Of a stretch of 64,000 nt of DNA, positions 54,689 to 62,729 are shown one piece after another. Made by a program: the position numbers and the translations under genes. The DNA comes from Pseudomonadota bacterium (lineage in GTDB: Bacteria > Pseudomonadota > Gammaproteobacteria > Steroidobacterales > Woeseiaceae). The stretch covers positions 186,001 through 250,000 of the forward strand of contig JADFNS010000001.1 in assembly GCA_022563255.1 (NCBI GenBank), written 5' to 3'. Below the pieces are notes generated by a model. The model was not told the origin of the DNA, ran no database searches, and was given only the letters and a program-made list of their open reading frames with translations. The number at the start of each line of letters is the position of its first letter. The stretch's first letter is position 1.

Positions 54689-54716
54689 TTGCTGGCTACT
54701 CCGATGTAGCCAGCAA
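54689..54716. other. Strong stem-loop across convergent gene ends
   Basis: TTGCTGGCTA and TAGCCAGCAA form a perfect 10-bp stem with an 8-base loop between the ridA stop and the last codons of the convergent phosphatase gene. There is no T run after it on either strand, so it is not a standard terminator, but it may protect 3' ends. Confidence 0.5.
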
Positions 54717-56495
54717 CTCATCGCGGCGCGCCAGCAGCGCACGCAACCGTCGCTTGTCCAGTACATCGCCGAATTGCTCCGCCAGCAATGCATCAGTCAA
54801 CCCCTCAAGCGCGCGTCTCCAACCTGGACTGAATGACAGCACTGCAGACTTGAGATGGCGGGGCCGACCTTTTTTACCGGTGAAAGCACGATCATGCCCG
54901 CTGAGTATTAACCGCCATGACTGGTCGTACGACATCCGCCGTTGCGTGCGCCGCTCATTGTAAATCAGCACGTCGAAGATGGACATCGCCGCCCACTGAT
55001 CCGCGATCGGGCACGCTGCGCCACTGCCCGATCCGGATGCCGAGCGCTCGACTTCATTCGTCGGGTTGCCCGGCATGAATTGCACGGAACCATCGCTGCC
55101 ATCAATTTCCCGAATGACCGTGACTGGCACCATATCCAGTTGGAGTAGCCGGTCCATTCGATACGCTGCGACTTCCGGATAAACTCCTTTGCCCCGGCGC
55201 TTGCTGAAAACAGCGCGCACCGTGTGCTCGCCGTCGCTTATTTTGAGCCAAGCGGTCGAGTCGCTGTGCTCGATTTCTGCGACATCGCCGTACTGCAGCA
55301 AAATCTGCAGTTGCGACGGCGAGAGATTTCCGGGCCGCCGTCCAACGTGCCGCGGATGATCTTTCGGAACCGTCACCGCAAGTCCCGACTGATTGATTAC
55401 CGATACGACGTCAGCCTCGAGCACCAACGCGTTGCCACTGCCCTTGTAGTAGGCGCTTAGCATTCCCGTATCGATCTCGATCAGGCGACCGTCAAAGCGC
55501 TGCAAAACCTGCCGGGTCGGAGTCGGAGTGTGCCCAACAACCACCCGGTCCAGGCCGAGCGTGATGAGCGCGGCTTCGAGCCGGAACCGTTCGACGATGC
55601 CAGGGCAAGTGGCGTTGCCCCGGTACCAGAGCGGTCCGTCCGAATCCAGAAGAGCAGAGCCGCCCAGACGCTTACCCGCGGCGAGCGCCTGCAAGACTTC
55701 GCGGTCTTCATTCAGGGCCGGCAAATAGTTGTTGAGAATCGAGACGTAATCGTAGTGGCTGTCCGTCGGCAGGAGAATCTCTGCATCCGTGAGTACGCCA
55801 AGTGCTTTGACGTACTCGACCAGCTCTTTTTGCAGGTCTCGATTGACGCCCGCAATTCCGGTGCGCGCCGTGCGCGGGGACAAACCACCGTGCACGAATG
55901 CCGTGCCGTTGATTACGACGATGACGTTCTTTTGTAACAACCACTGCCCGTAATAGCCTGCGGCACGAAACGCCCGGCGCATGGCGAAGTATCCCCGTGG
56001 ATAGTCCGCATCGAATCTGCTGCGTTGCTCGGCACCACCACCGTGTTTGGCGTAGAGCGCGAACCACTGCGCCCGCTCATCGTCGTCTTCGTCCGCGGCA
56101 AACGCCGCGTACTCGGCGTCGCTGACATAGCGCATATCTCCGGTGAGTAACATGGATTCGTGATTGCCGATCAACACATGCACATGTCCACCCGCGGCAT
56201 CGGCCTCTGCTTCCAAACGCATGAGCAAATCCATCACCGCGCGCGAATCGGGCCCGCGATCAAGAAAGTCCCCAAGCACTACGAGGTGCGCCTGCCCGCC
56301 TGCCCAGGTCAGATCGTCGCCGAGGATGCCAGCCTGCCGAAGCGTAGCGACCATGCCGACACGGTTGCCGTGCACGTCGGTAATCGCGACGATTCTCCCG
56401 ATATCGTCAAACTGCCAGTCTTTCGAAAATGCGGCTTGCGTACCCGAAACCGCCAACAAAGTGCTCAGCAGTAAGATTTTAAAACGTCGAGTCAA
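54696..56495 (-). CDS. Exported PPP-family phosphatase fused to a degenerate kinase-like domain
   Basis: 599 residues with a signal peptide (KILLLSTLLAVSGTQA). Residues about 30-350 are a PPP (Shewanella-like phosphatase) domain with every metal motif: ITDVHGN (38-44), GDFLDRG (75-81), GNHE (110-113), VHGG (201-204) and VVGHTPT (319-325). Residues about 410-595 look like the FAM20/HipA/CotH kinase fold: an N-lobe-like block (YPEVAAYRMDRLLQLDMVPV, about 439-458) and a catalytic-loop-like block (IFDVLIYNERRTQRRMSY) followed by LILSGHDRAF. Where I would expect NxDRxxxN and DH in an active member, Asp and Asn are replaced by Arg and the metal Asp by Gly, so the domain is probably a pseudokinase. 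It should be periplasmic. Confidence 0.78.
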   Translation of the reverse strand: MTRRFKILLLSTLLAVSGTQAAFSKDWQFDDIGRIVAITDVHGNRVGMVATLRQAGILGDDLTWAGGQAHLVVLGDFLDRGPDSRAVMDLLMRLEAEADAAGGHVHVLIGNHESMLLTGDMRYVSDAEYAAFAADEDDDERAQWFALYAKHGGGAEQRSRFDADYPRGYFAMRRAFRAAGYYGQWLLQKNVIVVINGTAFVHGGLSPRTARTGIAGVNRDLQKELVEYVKALGVLTDAEILLPTDSHYDYVSILNNYLPALNEDREVLQALAAGKRLGGSALLDSDGPLWYRGNATCPGIVERFRLEAALITLGLDRVVVGHTPTPTRQVLQRFDGRLIEIDTGMLSAYYKGSGNALVLEADVVSVINQSGLAVTVPKDHPRHVGRRPGNLSPSQLQILLQYGDVAEIEHSDSTAWLKISDGEHTVRAVFSKRRGKGVYPEVAAYRMDRLLQLDMVPVTVIREIDGSDGSVQFMPGNPTNEVERSASGSGSGAACPIADQWAAMSIFDVLIYNERRTQRRMSYDQSWRLILSGHDRAFTGKKGRPRHLKSAVLSFSPGWRRALEGLTDALLAEQFGDVLDKRRLRALLARRDELLATSE

Positions 56496-56610: not shown

Positions 56611-57660
56611 ATGTCGCTAACTCGTTGGACACTGACAGCGGCCACGTTGTTCCTGCTGAGTTCCGACGCATCCTCGCAGGAATTGCAGCGCCCGGACCCA
56701 TTGTTTCAGAGTCACGACGTGCTTGACGTTCGCATTGTTGCGCCGTTGTCGACCATCCTCTCGGAGCGTCCTTTCGACGAGGAGTTACCTGCGAGCTTTC
56801 GGTACACGAATTCTGCCGGCGCGGCGATTGAGCTTGATATCGAAATGCGAACACGAGGCCGGTTTCGTCGGCAGAAAGATATCTGTGACTTCCCGCCCAT
56901 GCGGCTGAATTTCAAGGCTTCGCAAACGAACGGAACGCTGTTTCACAAACAAGACAAGGTCAAACTTGTAACGCATTGTCGGGCGGCCGAACGCTACACG
57001 CAGGCGCTGCTGCGCGAGTATATGGCGTATCGAATTCTCAACACGCTCACGGATATCAGCTACAGAGTTCGGCTCTTGCGCATCACATACATTGACACGG
57101 AAAAAAATCGACGGAAGATTACTCAGTACGGGTTCATCATCGAGCATCGCGAGCGACTGGCCCGGCGCATAAAATTACCGGCTCTCGAAATTTCGCGAAC
57201 CAGCGTCGGTGCCCTCGACCCCGAATACACCAACCTGATCTCGCTGTACCATTACCTGATCGGCAACACCGATTTCTCCCCTATTTTGGGCGTGAAAGGT
57301 GAAACTTGTTGCCACAATCATGTCCTGTTCGGCGTGCAGGGCGAGCCGCTCAAGTCAGTTCCGTACGATTTCGACCAGTCCGGACTTGTCTACGCGCCGT
57401 ACAGCGTTCCGAACGCGAGATTCAGACTACGCGATGTGCGGCAAAGACTTTATCGCGGGCGGTGCGTCAACAATAGCCTCATTGTCACGACGATCGCCAG
57501 GTATCAGGACGCCAGAGACGCGGTCATGCGGGTTGTCACAGAACTTGACATGGTCTCGGCAAGGTCAAAAAAAATGACGGCCAGCTACCTCAACAAATTC
57601 TACAAAACCCTGGACTCGGAACGGCGCATCAAAAACGCTTTTGTCAGAAAGTGCTTTTAG
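56611..57660 (+). CDS. Exported CotH-like (kinase-fold) protein
   Basis: 349 residues with a signal peptide (TLTAATLFLLSSDASS). The body resembles CotH-type atypical kinases: MRTRGRFRRQKDICDFPPMR (about 79-98), DKVKLVTHCRAAERYTQALL, then LIGNTDFS (217-223), CHNHVLF (234-240) and PYDFDQSGLVYAPYSVP (251-267). These supply Asp221, Asn236 and Asp253 as plausible catalytic/metal residues. CotH proteins phosphorylate other proteins; the target here is unknown. GGAG precedes the ATG. It is divergent from the phosphatase fusion (115 bp apart) and overlaps the next convergent gene by 17 bp. Confidence 0.72.
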   Translation: MSLTRWTLTAATLFLLSSDASSQELQRPDPLFQSHDVLDVRIVAPLSTILSERPFDEELPASFRYTNSAGAAIELDIEMRTRGRFRRQKDICDFPPMRLNFKASQTNGTLFHKQDKVKLVTHCRAAERYTQALLREYMAYRILNTLTDISYRVRLLRITYIDTEKNRRKITQYGFIIEHRERLARRIKLPALEISRTSVGALDPEYTNLISLYHYLIGNTDFSPILGVKGETCCHNHVLFGVQGEPLKSVPYDFDQSGLVYAPYSVPNARFRLRDVRQRLYRGRCVNNSLIVTTIARYQDARDAVMRVVTELDMVSARSKKMTASYLNKFYKTLDSERRIKNAFVRKCF

Positions 57661-58636
57661 GCGCCGCATCCGTATCGCCGGACTGCAGCCAGTCAGACAG
57701 TATCTTCGATACGCGCGGGTGAATGAAATAGCCGATTGAACTGTGTGGATTCGACTTTCCGTAGCGCACCGCAAGATTGAAAATCTTGTAATCATGCACC
57801 GCGCTAATCATGCGTTGTTGCAACATCGCCTTGAAATCGTCAGCGAGCGTGTTGTCATGGCACGTGAAATCATCCTCGGCGGCGACGTTGTGCCAGAAAA
57901 GGACGTTTTCGGGAAATTTCGCATGCCGTTTTTCTTTAGCGCCTAACAGCCGTCTCTGAATGCTTGAATCTCCCAGCGGCGAACCAAGCGTCACCCATAC
58001 CTCTATTTTCATGTCGTGGTATTTCTCTTTCAGGTCCGGATCGTGCGACAACTGCCACAGTACGTCGTAGGCAATAACGCTGCCGGTACCGTGTGAAATC
58101 AACACGATTCGATCACCGCGATCCATTAATTCGCAAAGCCGATCCCTGAGACGCTGCCGAACCTTTACCGCGTAATCGGACTTAGGATCGAAATATCGCG
58201 CAAAATCTTTGCACAGCAGACGCAACAGCGGCACGCACAATCCAAGAGCCCCGAACAACGGCGCCACAATGTCCGCGATGGCCTCCGGAATTGCCGACTT
58301 GCCGGGCAATAGGTCGTATTGGCGAATACCAAACCGCTTGCGCGCTTTTATCCCCCGCAGGCTGGTCAGGACGTTGCGACGATCACCGATATCGAGCTTC
58401 TCATCGTAGCTTTTGCCGTGCGCCTCGAGAATCTCGGCGTTGAGGTCTCCGTACCAGGCAAGGTGTTTTCGAACCGCATCGAATGCGTCGAGTTGATCCG
58501 GAAAATCGCGCTCTATACCGGCGCGCAATGCCGCCATAGTCAGGTCCATGTAAGCATCTTCGTGCGGCTTGAAATCCCTGCCATGAATCAGCAGCAGACT
58601 GCGATTACTCGGGCCACTCAATTCGTCGAGAGTCAT
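57644..58636 (-). CDS. Alpha/beta-hydrolase-like protein lacking the nucleophile Ser
   Basis: 330 residues, paralogous to the hydrolase at 5098-6015: both have VIAYDVLWQLSH/IIAYDSLWELSH, a V.LTMGSPLG/VTLGSPLG block, LADDF and NPHSSIGY/NVHSEYGY. The nucleophile elbow is SHGTGS (181-186) here against GHSMGS there, so the position of catalytic Ser167 is Gly183. It may be catalytically dead or use the next Ser. No signal peptide. It follows the DUF4956 gene by 18 bp on the same strand. Confidence 0.75.
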   Translation of the reverse strand: MTLDELSGPSNRSLLLIHGRDFKPHEDAYMDLTMAALRAGIERDFPDQLDAFDAVRKHLAWYGDLNAEILEAHGKSYDEKLDIGDRRNVLTSLRGIKARKRFGIRQYDLLPGKSAIPEAIADIVAPLFGALGLCVPLLRLLCKDFARYFDPKSDYAVKVRQRLRDRLCELMDRGDRIVLISHGTGSVIAYDVLWQLSHDPDLKEKYHDMKIEVWVTLGSPLGDSSIQRRLLGAKEKRHAKFPENVLFWHNVAAEDDFTCHDNTLADDFKAMLQQRMISAVHDYKIFNLAVRYGKSNPHSSIGYFIHPRVSKILSDWLQSGDTDAAPKSTF

Positions 58637-58654: not shown

Positions 58655-59302
58655 TCAGTAATCATCTTCACCCGCATCACGCCGCGTCAGCATCGTCAAA
58701 AACGGACCGGACAGCGTCTTGCCATATTCGAGTTTCCAGATAACGAGCGTCACCATCACAAACGTAAACGAAATAACGCCTGCAATTCCCAGCGCGCCGA
58801 TGCCGGACCCCAGGCCAATGCCAATCGCCACGAATATGTACATGGCGTCCGACGGCTGGCTGAGCGAAAAACGGAAACGTACTGCGGCGACGACGCCAGC
58901 AAGACTGAACGCCAGGGCGAGGCTGTTTACGACGATCATCGCGATACCGGTAACAACGGTCGGCAAGATCACGATCGTCTGTAAGAATGACTGGTCGATG
59001 CGCCGCGCCCGGCTGGTAATGAAATACACCCAGGAGATAGGAATCGTGAGAACAAGTGCGCCGATACTGGCAAGCAACAGGCGCACCGGACCCACGGTCG
59101 AGAACAGGGTTCTTTCGACGCTGGTATAAACCGGCTCGAACAAATCGATATTCGATGCCGCAAGATCGCCAATGCCTCCCAGCGGCAAGTATTCGGCGAT
59201 CGCCGGATAACGAGTAACCAGAAACATCGTTACGCCCACCCAAAATCCGTAGTACATCAGGATCAGTGTCAGCGGGATCAGCAAACTTGCGGATCGTCTC
59301 AT
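58655..59302 (-). CDS. DUF4956 membrane protein
   Basis: From ATG 59302 (GGAG upstream) the product has 215 residues and about five membrane helices. It carries the DUF4956 core LAGVVAAVRFRFSLSQPSDAMYIFVAIGIGLGSG. DUF4956 proteins are often encoded beside CotH-like kinases and VTC-type polyphosphate polymerases; a CotH-like gene is indeed 1 kb away. Function is unknown. It is first in a two-gene unit with the hydrolase-like gene. The ORF track starts 12 codons too early. Confidence 0.82.
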   Translation of the reverse strand: MRRSASLLIPLTLILMYYGFWVGVTMFLVTRYPAIAEYLPLGGIGDLAASNIDLFEPVYTSVERTLFSTVGPVRLLLASIGALVLTIPISWVYFITSRARRIDQSFLQTIVILPTVVTGIAMIVVNSLALAFSLAGVVAAVRFRFSLSQPSDAMYIFVAIGIGLGSGIGALGIAGVISFTFVMVTLVIWKLEYGKTLSGPFLTMLTRRDAGEDDY

Positions 59303-60375: not shown

Positions 60376-61254
60376 TCAGGAACCGATTGGATGCCAGGTC
60401 GTTTTCACTTCCTGTGTATCGCTGATCAGGTAGGGATTCGCAGCATCGCTGCCGGCCCAGTCTAAGCGGGTCCGCGCGACCACGCGCTTGATATTGTCGG
60501 CCGCCAGTTCCTGCACCGTTCTCGCAACTGCTTTGCCGCCATCGCAATAGATCACTGCGTTCACGTCCATATGCGACGCAAAAAATTCGGTCAGCTCCGC
60601 ACGGAATCCAGTCAGGATATTGACGACGCCGCCAGGCACGTCCGCCGAGTGCAAAACCTCGGCAAAACTGACCGCACACAATGGCATGCTTTCCGAGGCG
60701 AGTACGATGCAGGTATTCCCTCCGACTATTGCCGGTGCAATGTTTGATATCAGACCGAGCAGACTGCTGTCGTCCGGCGCCAGAATCGAAATAACACCGG
60801 TCGGTTCAAGCACAGAAAAATTAAAGTGCGAAGAACTTACCGGATTTACCGCACTGAATACCTGCTGATACTTGTCGGCCCACCCGGCGAAATAAATCAG
60901 CCGGTCGATTGAGCGGTTGATCTCCCGCTCCGCGGCCCGCGGCGTCGAACCCTGCAAAATCAGTTCAGCGATGAATTGCTCGCGCCGCCCCTCGAGCATC
61001 TCGGCAATGCGATAGAGAATCTGGCCACGAAAATAGGCGCTGGCCTTCGCCCATCCAGATTGCGCTTTGCGGGCGACCACAACCGAATTTCGAAAGTCCT
61101 TGCGACTGCCGCGACACATGTTGGCAATCACAACGCCTCGCTTGTCTTCGAGCGCGAAGTAGCGACCCGATTCCGTGCGCGGAAATTTGCCGCCGATATA
61201 AAGCTTGTAGGTCTTGGCAACGGCGATACGCTGGTTCTTGAGTGCTGACGCCAT
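60376..61254 (-). CDS. Half aldehyde dehydrogenase (second domain of a split ALDH16-like enzyme), no catalytic Cys
   Basis: 292 residues matching the NAD-binding half of ALDHs (LYIGGKFPRTESGRYFAL, GWAKASAYFRGQILYRIAEML, FAGWADKYQQVF, GGVVNILTG). It ends where the catalytic domain would begin; the Cys and general-base Glu regions are absent (DNIKRVVARTRLDWAG replaces ELGGK). It starts two bases after the intact ALDH stop. Together the two make about 782 residues, close to the two-domain ALDH16 proteins, so this is probably a structural partner, not a broken gene. Confidence 0.85.
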   Translation of the reverse strand: MASALKNQRIAVAKTYKLYIGGKFPRTESGRYFALEDKRGVVIANMCRGSRKDFRNSVVVARKAQSGWAKASAYFRGQILYRIAEMLEGRREQFIAELILQGSTPRAAEREINRSIDRLIYFAGWADKYQQVFSAVNPVSSSHFNFSVLEPTGVISILAPDDSSLLGLISNIAPAIVGGNTCIVLASESMPLCAVSFAEVLHSADVPGGVVNILTGFRAELTEFFASHMDVNAVIYCDGGKAVARTVQELAADNIKRVVARTRLDWAGSDAANPYLISDTQEVKTTWHPIGS

Positions 61255-61256
61255 GA

Positions 61257-62729
61257 TTACGCTCCCAACTTCACGTAGGCGCCCAGTCCGTGCAAACCGC
61301 CTTCGCGCCCGACGCCACTTTCCTTGTAGCCGCCGAAAGGCGATGTCGGATCGAACTTGTTAAAGGTATTGGCCCAGATAACGCCAGCGCGAATCGCCTG
61401 CGTCACCTTGAAAATTTTCGCGCCCTTGTCCGTCCAGACGCCGCCAGACAATCCGTACGGCGTATTGTTGGCTTTCATTACCGCTTCGTCGTAACGACGG
61501 AATGTCTGGATAGCGAGAACCGGACCAAAGATCTCATCCTGAACGATACGATTGGACTGCGATACTCCCGTGAATATAGTCGGTCGGCACCAATAGCCCT
61601 TTTTCGGCAATCGACATGAGCTCTGGTGCATCTCGCCGCCCTCTTCGCGCCCGATTTTCAGGTACGACTCTATTTTTTCGAGCTGCATCGGGGAATTGAT
61701 CGCGCCGATGTCCGTGTTCTTGTCGAGCGGATCGCCGACGATCAATGTTTCCATTCTGTCTTTGAGTTTGGCGATCACTTCGTCAGCAACCGATTCCTGC
61801 ACCAGCAAGCGCGACCCCGCGCAACAGACGTGGCCCTGATTGAAGAAGATTCCGTTAACGATGCCCTCAACGGCCTCATCGATAGCGGCATCCGCGAAGA
61901 TGATGTTCGCGGCCTTGCCGCCCAGCTCCAGCGTGTACTTCTTGTTCGTTCCGGCCAGCGTTTTTTGGATCATGCGGCCAACGTTGGTCGAGCCCGTAAA
62001 CGCTATCTTGTCGACGCCGGGATGCTCTACGAGAGCGGCACCCGCAACGCCCGAGCCGGTAATAATATTGACGACGCCCGGGGGCAGTCCGGCGTCCGCG
62101 ACGACCTCGGCCAGCTTTAGCGCGGTCAGCGGCGTCGTCTCGGCAGGCTTCAACACCACCGTATTGCCGCAAGCCAGCGCCGGCGCGATCTTCCAGGAAG
62201 CCATGAGGAGCGGAAAATTCCACGGGATTATCTGGCCCGCGACCCCCAGCGATCGCGCAGTGCGCCCGGGAAACGCGTACTCGAGTTTGTCCGCCCAGCC
62301 CGCGTAGTAGAAAAAGTGCGCTGCGGCAAGCGGTACATCGATATCGCGAGATTCGCGGATAGGCTTGCCGCCATCCAGCGATTCGATGACGGAAAATTCA
62401 CGCGCCCGTTCCTGAATGATGCGGGCAATGCGGTAGATGTATTTGCCGCGTTCGGCCGGTTTCATACGACCCCACGCGCCGTTATACGCCGCCCGTGCTG
62501 CTTTAACCGCCTTGTCCACATCGTCCGAACTGGCATCAGCCACGCGGCTGATTTTTTCTTCGGTTGCCGGATTGATCGTATCGAAGTACCGGCCCCTTGC
62601 CGGGGGCACGAAGTCGCCGTTGATGAACAAGCCGTAGCGCTTGTTGAGCGTTATGTGATCTGTGCTCTGGGGCGCCGGATCGTATTCCCAGCCGCCACTG
62701 AACGCGAGTTTGTTTTCGGGAGTTGCCAT
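61257..62729 (-). CDS. Aldehyde dehydrogenase (catalytic half of a split ALDH16-like pair)
   Basis: 490 residues from ATG 62729. All catalytic features are present: PWNFPLLMASWKIAPALACGNT, FTGSTNVGR, the Glu in LELGGKAANIIFAD and the nucleophile Cys in NQGHVCCAGSR. Lying after deoD and deoC, it would oxidise acetaldehyde from deoxyribose-5-phosphate cleavage to acetate. deoC ends 36 bp upstream, and the half-ALDH follows after two bases. Confidence 0.92.
   Translation of the reverse strand: MATPENKLAFSGGWEYDPAPQSTDHITLNKRYGLFINGDFVPPARGRYFDTINPATEEKISRVADASSDDVDKAVKAARAAYNGAWGRMKPAERGKYIYRIARIIQERAREFSVIESLDGGKPIRESRDIDVPLAAAHFFYYAGWADKLEYAFPGRTARSLGVAGQIIPWNFPLLMASWKIAPALACGNTVVLKPAETTPLTALKLAEVVADAGLPPGVVNIITGSGVAGAALVEHPGVDKIAFTGSTNVGRMIQKTLAGTNKKYTLELGGKAANIIFADAAIDEAVEGIVNGIFFNQGHVCCAGSRLLVQESVADEVIAKLKDRMETLIVGDPLDKNTDIGAINSPMQLEKIESYLKIGREEGGEMHQSSCRLPKKGYWCRPTIFTGVSQSNRIVQDEIFGPVLAIQTFRRYDEAVMKANNTPYGLSGGVWTDKGAKIFKVTQAIRAGVIWANTFNKFDPTSPFGGYKESGVGREGGLHGLGAYVKLGA

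Follow-up and report, generated by a model that had tools for sequence, protein, structure and literature searches.

We identified, in the 64,000-nucleotide stretch of DNA analysed here (the window), a gene that joins a Shewanella-like PPP phosphatase domain to a FAM20/HipA-type pseudokinase domain in one polypeptide (Table 1). The fusion is conserved, has relatives in which the kinase residues are intact, and is a variant of known Shelph phosphatases and FAM20-type kinases and pseudokinases. We assign a probability of about 45% to the reading that this is an exported phosphatase whose pseudokinase domain is regulatory and which opposes or controls a neighbouring CotH-like kinase. This reading rests on computed observations set out below: the domains and their residue losses, the intact relatives, the pair of cysteines, the signs of selection and a gene cluster that is conserved.

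Table 1. Coordinates of the fusion gene, its domains and key residues, and the adjoining genes (window positions).
Feature	Position	Strand	Basis
Exported (predicted) PPP phosphatase-pseudokinase fusion, 599 aa, TTG start	54696..56495	-	ORF, Pfam/PDB matches, homologues
Predicted Sec signal peptide LTRRFKILLLSTLLAVSGTQAA, residues ~1-23	56427..56495	-	Sequence inspection
Shewanella-like PPP metallophosphatase domain, residues ~30-370	55386..56408	-	Pfam, PDB matches, homologue alignment
Cys297, phosphatase domain	55605..55607	-	Present in all 70 of 70 fusions and in none of 6 stand-alone relatives
FAM20/HipA-superfamily pseudokinase domain, residues ~376-595	54711..55370	-	Profile matches to FAM20 and TIGR03843
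Former beta3 Lys position, S431	55203..55205	-	Homologue alignment
Helix-C Glu position, E441 (kept; D/G/N/A/S in sister species)	55173..55175	-	Homologue alignment
Cys495, pseudokinase domain	55011..55013	-	Invariant in 70/70 fusions
Former catalytic Asp position, R515 (G in 26/27 main-group genus rows)	54951..54953	-	Alignment
Former catalytic-loop Asn position, R520 (R in 26/27 main-group genus rows)	54936..54938	-	Alignment
Former metal Asp position, G533 (E in 23/27, G in 4/27 main-group genus rows)	54897..54899	-	Alignment
Predicted secreted CotH-like kinase, 349 aa, divergent, motifs NTD / CCHN / PYDFD intact	56611..57660	+	Motifs, profiles
Alpha/beta-hydrolase-like protein, 330 aa, same cluster, no Pfam assignment	57644..58636	-	Sequence inspection
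DUF4956 membrane protein, same cluster	58655..59302	-	Neighbourhood comparison

The fusion gene is present in one copy in the 2.4 Mb genome assembly. By inspection its N-terminus (LTRRFKILLLSTLLAVSGTQA) is a typical Sec signal peptide, and no transmembrane segment was found elsewhere in the protein, where no 19-residue window reaches a Kyte-Doolittle value of 1.6; from this predicted signal peptide, export is likely. The sequence-only reading had described a secreted phosphatase and kinase-like domain in one polypeptide, of which the architecture is upheld and the secretion is likely; the intact relatives, the cysteine pair and the adjoining CotH-like and DUF4956 genes had escaped that reading. 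Of 149 related genomes, 97 carry the C-terminal domain, almost always within an ORF of full fusion length (~600-670 aa), which marks the fusion as old; it is conserved at genus and family level and in several families of the order, and judged by the 97 genomes the observed two-domain architecture lies far beyond chance. Outside the order it is rare, with one further family in the class (genome G477), and among 399 genomes drawn from the phylum we found no fusion relatives besides the window's own genome, nor any in viral contigs. A description of this fusion was not found in the open-access literature searched. Misassembly or a frameshift artefact was considered as a source of the fusion and ruled out, as the same reading frame is kept in dozens of genomes.

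Pfam Metallophos matches residues 34-204 of the phosphatase half (E = 5e-11), and the nearest solved structures are those of the Shewanella PPP phosphatase (2z72, 1v73 and 2zbm, E ~1e-27), the best of these reaching 1.6e-27 against 0.004 for the next best match, with other PPPs far behind. As the sequence-only reading had stated, the metal motifs are intact: all nine PPP metal and catalytic residues (D40, H42, D76, D79, R80, N111, H112, H202 and H322) are present and are nearly invariant among homologues, escaping the decay that our homologue survey revealed at the kinase positions. The metal and catalytic residues are kept throughout the motifs GDxHG, GDxxDRG, GNHE, HGG and GH, the window protein reading TDVHG at the first of these with both the D and H ligands retained. 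The insert between GNHE and HGG is long (~90 residues between H112 and H202) and the (I/L/V)D(S/T)G motif is present as IDTG in 'IEIDTGML', both of which are marks of the Shewanella-like PPP group; in metal motifs, insert and IDTG motif the protein resembles the Shelphs (2z72, 1v73; PMC535813). The N-terminal half has the appearance of a working Shewanella-like PPP phosphatase, and we predict that it is active. Six stand-alone Shelph-type proteins that we compared, unlike the fusion, have neither the C-terminal domain nor Cys297.

Profile comparisons placed the C-terminal domain, at the level of sequence, in the FAM20/HipA-type kinase superfamily. When compared with the PDB, a profile of 36 homologous C-terminal domains matches FAM20A (E = 1.9e-10, in both lobes), FAM20B (5xom, E = 7e-7), FAM20C (E = 3e-5) and the C. 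elegans Fam20 structure. A second profile, from the eight homologues with intact residues, also matches solved FAM20 structures (E = 4.7e-9) and aligns the helix 'EVAAYRLDR' and the DR...D region with FAM20A. TIGR03843 (the SCO1664 family) is matched by 35 of the 36 members (best E = 3.6e-13), with only a trace for the window sequence alone, and HipA_2 (PF20613) is matched with a best E of 2.6e-5, the scores for both families falling below curated cut-offs; most intact members weakly match HipA_2, Fam20C and PI3_PI4_kinase. To our knowledge, neither TIGR03843 nor HipA_2 contains phosphatase fusions. Profile-profile similarity of the domain to CotH, or to the family of the neighbouring CotH-like gene, was not found, which means that domain and neighbour are no close paralogues. 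AlphaFold models of the C-terminal domain (alignment of 4 sequences) and of the CotH-like neighbour (2 sequences) reached pLDDT values of 40 and 36, too low to be informative, most likely owing to the shallow alignments.

At the hallmark positions K, E, D, R, N and D the window protein reads S-E-R-R-R-G, and its genus mostly x-x-G-R-R-E. Among the kinase Lys, Glu, catalytic Asp, Asn and metal Asp, the Glu is the sole residue kept in the window, and the GxGVTKP loop is missing. The replacement of the catalytic-loop Asp, the second Asn and the metal Asp, suspected at the outset, is borne out by the alignment (D515 to R, N520 to R, D533 to G). By contrast, 13 fused homologues in four other families of the order (f4, f7, f9 and f11) keep K-E-D-R-N-D or K-D-D-R-N-D, and the eight intact homologues aligned carry a loop near GxGVTKP before the Lys. 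The sequence-only reading had named a lack of conservation at these positions in homologues as grounds for its refutation, and the survey decides that point in its favour. Because these residues are common to FAM20 and HipA-type kinases, we take the intact state as ancestral and that of the window as a loss. As the same fused domain keeps K-E/D-D-R-N-D elsewhere, a putative bifunctional kinase-phosphatase exists, and the window form would be a derived pseudokinase. Partial states among homologues (e.g. YENRND, SEDRNG and RExRSD) indicate that the kinase positions were lost piecemeal. The kinase state changes twice on the full-length protein tree and three to five times on a phosphatase-only tree, both unrooted, as rooting with stand-alone Shelphs was spoiled by long branches.

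The window pseudokinase domain is nevertheless under purifying selection, with dN/dS near 0.1 in both halves across five close pairs (~0.1 in most, range 0.07 to 0.18). That the degenerate domain is a decaying relic without function, as the loss of every hallmark kinase residue except one might suggest, is hardly credible: it is constrained as strongly as the phosphatase half, full-length forms persist in dozens of species, and these conservation data refute decay. The replacement residues G515, R520, M521 and H534 are 96% conserved in the genus, to which the window protein is an exception at 515 (R) and at 533 (G) belongs to a minority. Kinase-fold proteins with other chemistry are known (SelO AMPylates and SidJ glutamylates), and the domain might likewise have gained another catalytic activity through the genus constellation G-R...R-M...E-H, whose residues are 85-96% conserved. 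We consider this very unlikely: the domain has lost its catalytic Asp, its Lys and its glycine loop, and carries G or E in place of the metal Asp; the departure of the window protein from the genus pattern (R515, G533) likewise disfavours a fixed new active site.

Cysteine occurs at only two positions of the window protein: C297 in the phosphatase, close to its PLWYRG loop, and C495 in the pseudokinase, directly ahead of the helix that runs into what was the catalytic loop. Of 70 fusions, 66 have no further cysteine in their mature part. The simplest reading is an interdomain disulfide, predicted to keep the two domains pressed together whether the kinase is intact or dead; alternatively, the cysteines would bond separate molecules.

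The divergent CotH-like gene lies 115 bases from the fusion gene, and the N-terminus of its product resembles a signal peptide. Residues K, E, NxD, CCHN and PYDxD are invariant in the family of this protein, whose own motifs GNTDFS / CCHN / PYDFD can be aligned by eye with those of true CotH (QNWDS...PHN...WIPWDN). The window copy has no Pfam CotH match; paralogue L101 scores 28.9 against the cut-off of 23.8, the only member to pass among those scanned singly, and in profile-profile comparison the family matches true CotH proteins at E = 1.3e-4. We regard the neighbour as a CotH-like, intact-looking kinase with putative catalytic activity. The fusion, the CotH-like gene and DUF4956, often with the hydrolase-like gene, form a cluster in several families, in which gene orders and orientations vary. 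Six families of the order and one outside it have the fusion and CotH-like genes next to each other, some divergent and some on the same strand. On the tree, CotH-like copies adjoining the fusion and four sampled copies elsewhere occupy separate branches. The CotH-like family is multi-copy, with up to 8 copies per genome in genus genomes such as G043, G012 and G048, and other copies (G064:C32, G030:C2) also adjoin DUF4956, which makes the pair of CotH-like gene and DUF4956 look like a separate module.

Where the surroundings are known, the CotH-like gene adjoins 44 of 51 degenerate rows versus 0 of 12 intact rows, and DUF4956 was found in 9 of 10 pseudokinase genomes searched but in none of the 5 with an intact kinase. 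Within the genus, 59 genomes have both the fusion and the CotH-like gene and 8 have neither, with single occurrences in 4 and 2, although genome incompleteness may lie behind part of this co-occurrence. An intact kinase and a CotH-like neighbour each change state only about twice on the protein tree, so the association is not statistically independent evidence, and a phylogeny-aware test, with 2 independent pairs only, had no power. The tie between the pseudokinase state and the CotH-like neighbour is therefore suggestive and reflects few evolutionary events. The seven degenerate exceptions without a CotH-like gene comprise a second paralogue and one protein of an otherwise intact clade. The second pseudokinase-phosphatase paralogue (L131:5049-6923, L127:5122-7215) carries the motif RExRSD and forms a separate branch, and in these two inspected cases a TonB-dependent receptor gene, not a CotH-like gene, adjoins it.

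These exceptions bear on a simpler explanation, in which the pseudokinase is only a structural or substrate-docking domain with no working tie to the CotH-like kinase, and the neighbourhood is an envelope-related operon. In its favour, the second paralogue group retains its degenerate domain without a CotH-like neighbour, and the cysteine pair is invariant also in the intact clade, which has no CotH-like gene nearby. We nonetheless find this explanation somewhat unlikely, since the fusion/CotH-like adjacency recurs across those seven families in both arrangements and the two genes have mostly been gained and lost together.

Taken with the gene neighbours, the invariant cysteine pair and purifying selection suggest that the pseudokinase may guide or regulate the phosphatase. 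In the regulatory reading that we prefer, an exported Shewanella-like PPP phosphatase carries a FAM20/HipA-superfamily kinase domain, probably clamped by the Cys297-Cys495 disulfide; the ancestor and several living families would be bifunctional kinase-phosphatases, and in the window lineage the kinase half would have turned pseudokinase and been kept under selection. The phosphatase would strip phosphate from a substrate that is secreted or lies in the envelope, the pseudokinase domain would bind that substrate or the adjacent secreted CotH-like kinase, and this kinase would drive the forward reaction in trans, DUF4956 being its membrane partner; export, the disulfide, catalysis by both enzymes and the regulatory contact are what we infer here. 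A broken kinase beside an intact-looking secreted kinase gene suggests a switch setting phosphorylation outside the cytoplasm. More tentatively, we propose a disulfide-clamped exported kinase-phosphatase that is intact and bifunctional in some families and elsewhere has passed its kinase reaction to the CotH-like neighbour, as a counterpart of FAM20A-FAM20C whose regulator carries the opposing phosphatase.

The kinase and phosphatase might alternatively target a glycan or small molecule, the cluster then modifying exopolysaccharide. FAM20B is a xylosylkinase that acts on xylose, and its structure is among those matched by the C-terminal domain profile. Genes for cotH and DUF4956 also adjoin Pel polysaccharide operons, as well as polyphosphate polymerase, in Gram-positive bacteria (PMC7112168). 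This possibility appears improbable, as no polysaccharide synthase was recognised adjoining the window genes, VTC-type polyphosphate polymerase was found in 0 of 10 genomes tested (with positive controls), and the nearest phosphatase of known structure is a protein phosphatase specific for tyrosine (PMC535813). The neighbour itself resembles the cotH-polyphosphate polymerase-DUF4956 cluster (PMC7112168, PMC7821199) in its N-x-D, HN and D-x-D motifs and in adjoining DUF4956, but differs in that the polymerase is missing from those 10 genomes.

The regulatory reading has its nearest known parallel in animals, where FAM20A, itself a pseudokinase, binds the secreted kinase FAM20C and activates it (PMC4421793, PMC7948968). 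As in that pair, the window system is FAM20-related and predicted to be exported, with a pseudokinase and an intact-looking kinase side by side; like FAM20A, the pseudokinase has inactive catalytic residues and would share its predicted compartment with a partner, here encoded by the adjacent kinase gene with the signal-peptide-like N-terminus. Unlike the animal pair, the system is bacterial, its pseudokinase is fused to a PPP phosphatase, and its putative partner is CotH-like with no close paralogy. The window domain has also lost far more residues than FAM20A, which has lost one acidic residue. Opposing activities in one polypeptide are found in the bifunctional kinase-phosphatases AceK, bacterial Pnkp and HPr kinase/phosphorylase, and such activities are likewise predicted for the intact fusion relatives. 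These three enzymes are, however, cytoplasmic, and their kinase part is unrelated to that of the fusion; Pnkp shares only the PPP-type half with it, as a weak match. Reversible extracytoplasmic phosphorylation in bacteria is little understood, and here one gene family, with intact and dead versions both living, ties an exported FAM20-related kinase domain covalently to a putatively opposing phosphatase. Its natural intact/dead pairs make the origin and post-catalytic role of a pseudokinase directly testable, and a search for substrates is suggested beside the CotH and DUF4956 genes.

Several further genes accompany the fusion. Intact forms in f4, f7 and f11 often adjoin a gene resembling a TLC ATP/ADP transporter, and as a lead only, such a TLC-like nucleotide transporter could supply ATP to the putative periplasmic kinase. 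Members of this family lie beside intact or recently degenerate fusions at L121:5779-7113, L121:9274-10947, L119:5239-6858, L126:4577-6337 and L124:4419-6230, and two of the three TLC-like proteins scanned carry a C-terminal putative Ig domain. In G477, the genome from outside the order, a PycTM-matching membrane protein (L132:7615-8292; PycTM is the Pycsar effector TM family) stands between the fusion and the CotH-like gene, in the slot held by DUF4956 in G141. In f16, f8 and one genus of f1, the cluster also includes an SdiA-regulated/phytase-like beta-propeller protein (L114:4976-5827, L129:2952-3728). On the minus strand of the window, an aldehyde dehydrogenase-like gene appears as two ORFs (60379-61254 and 61260-61973), split by a stop or frameshift, and its relative in L114 is a single 508-aa ORF.
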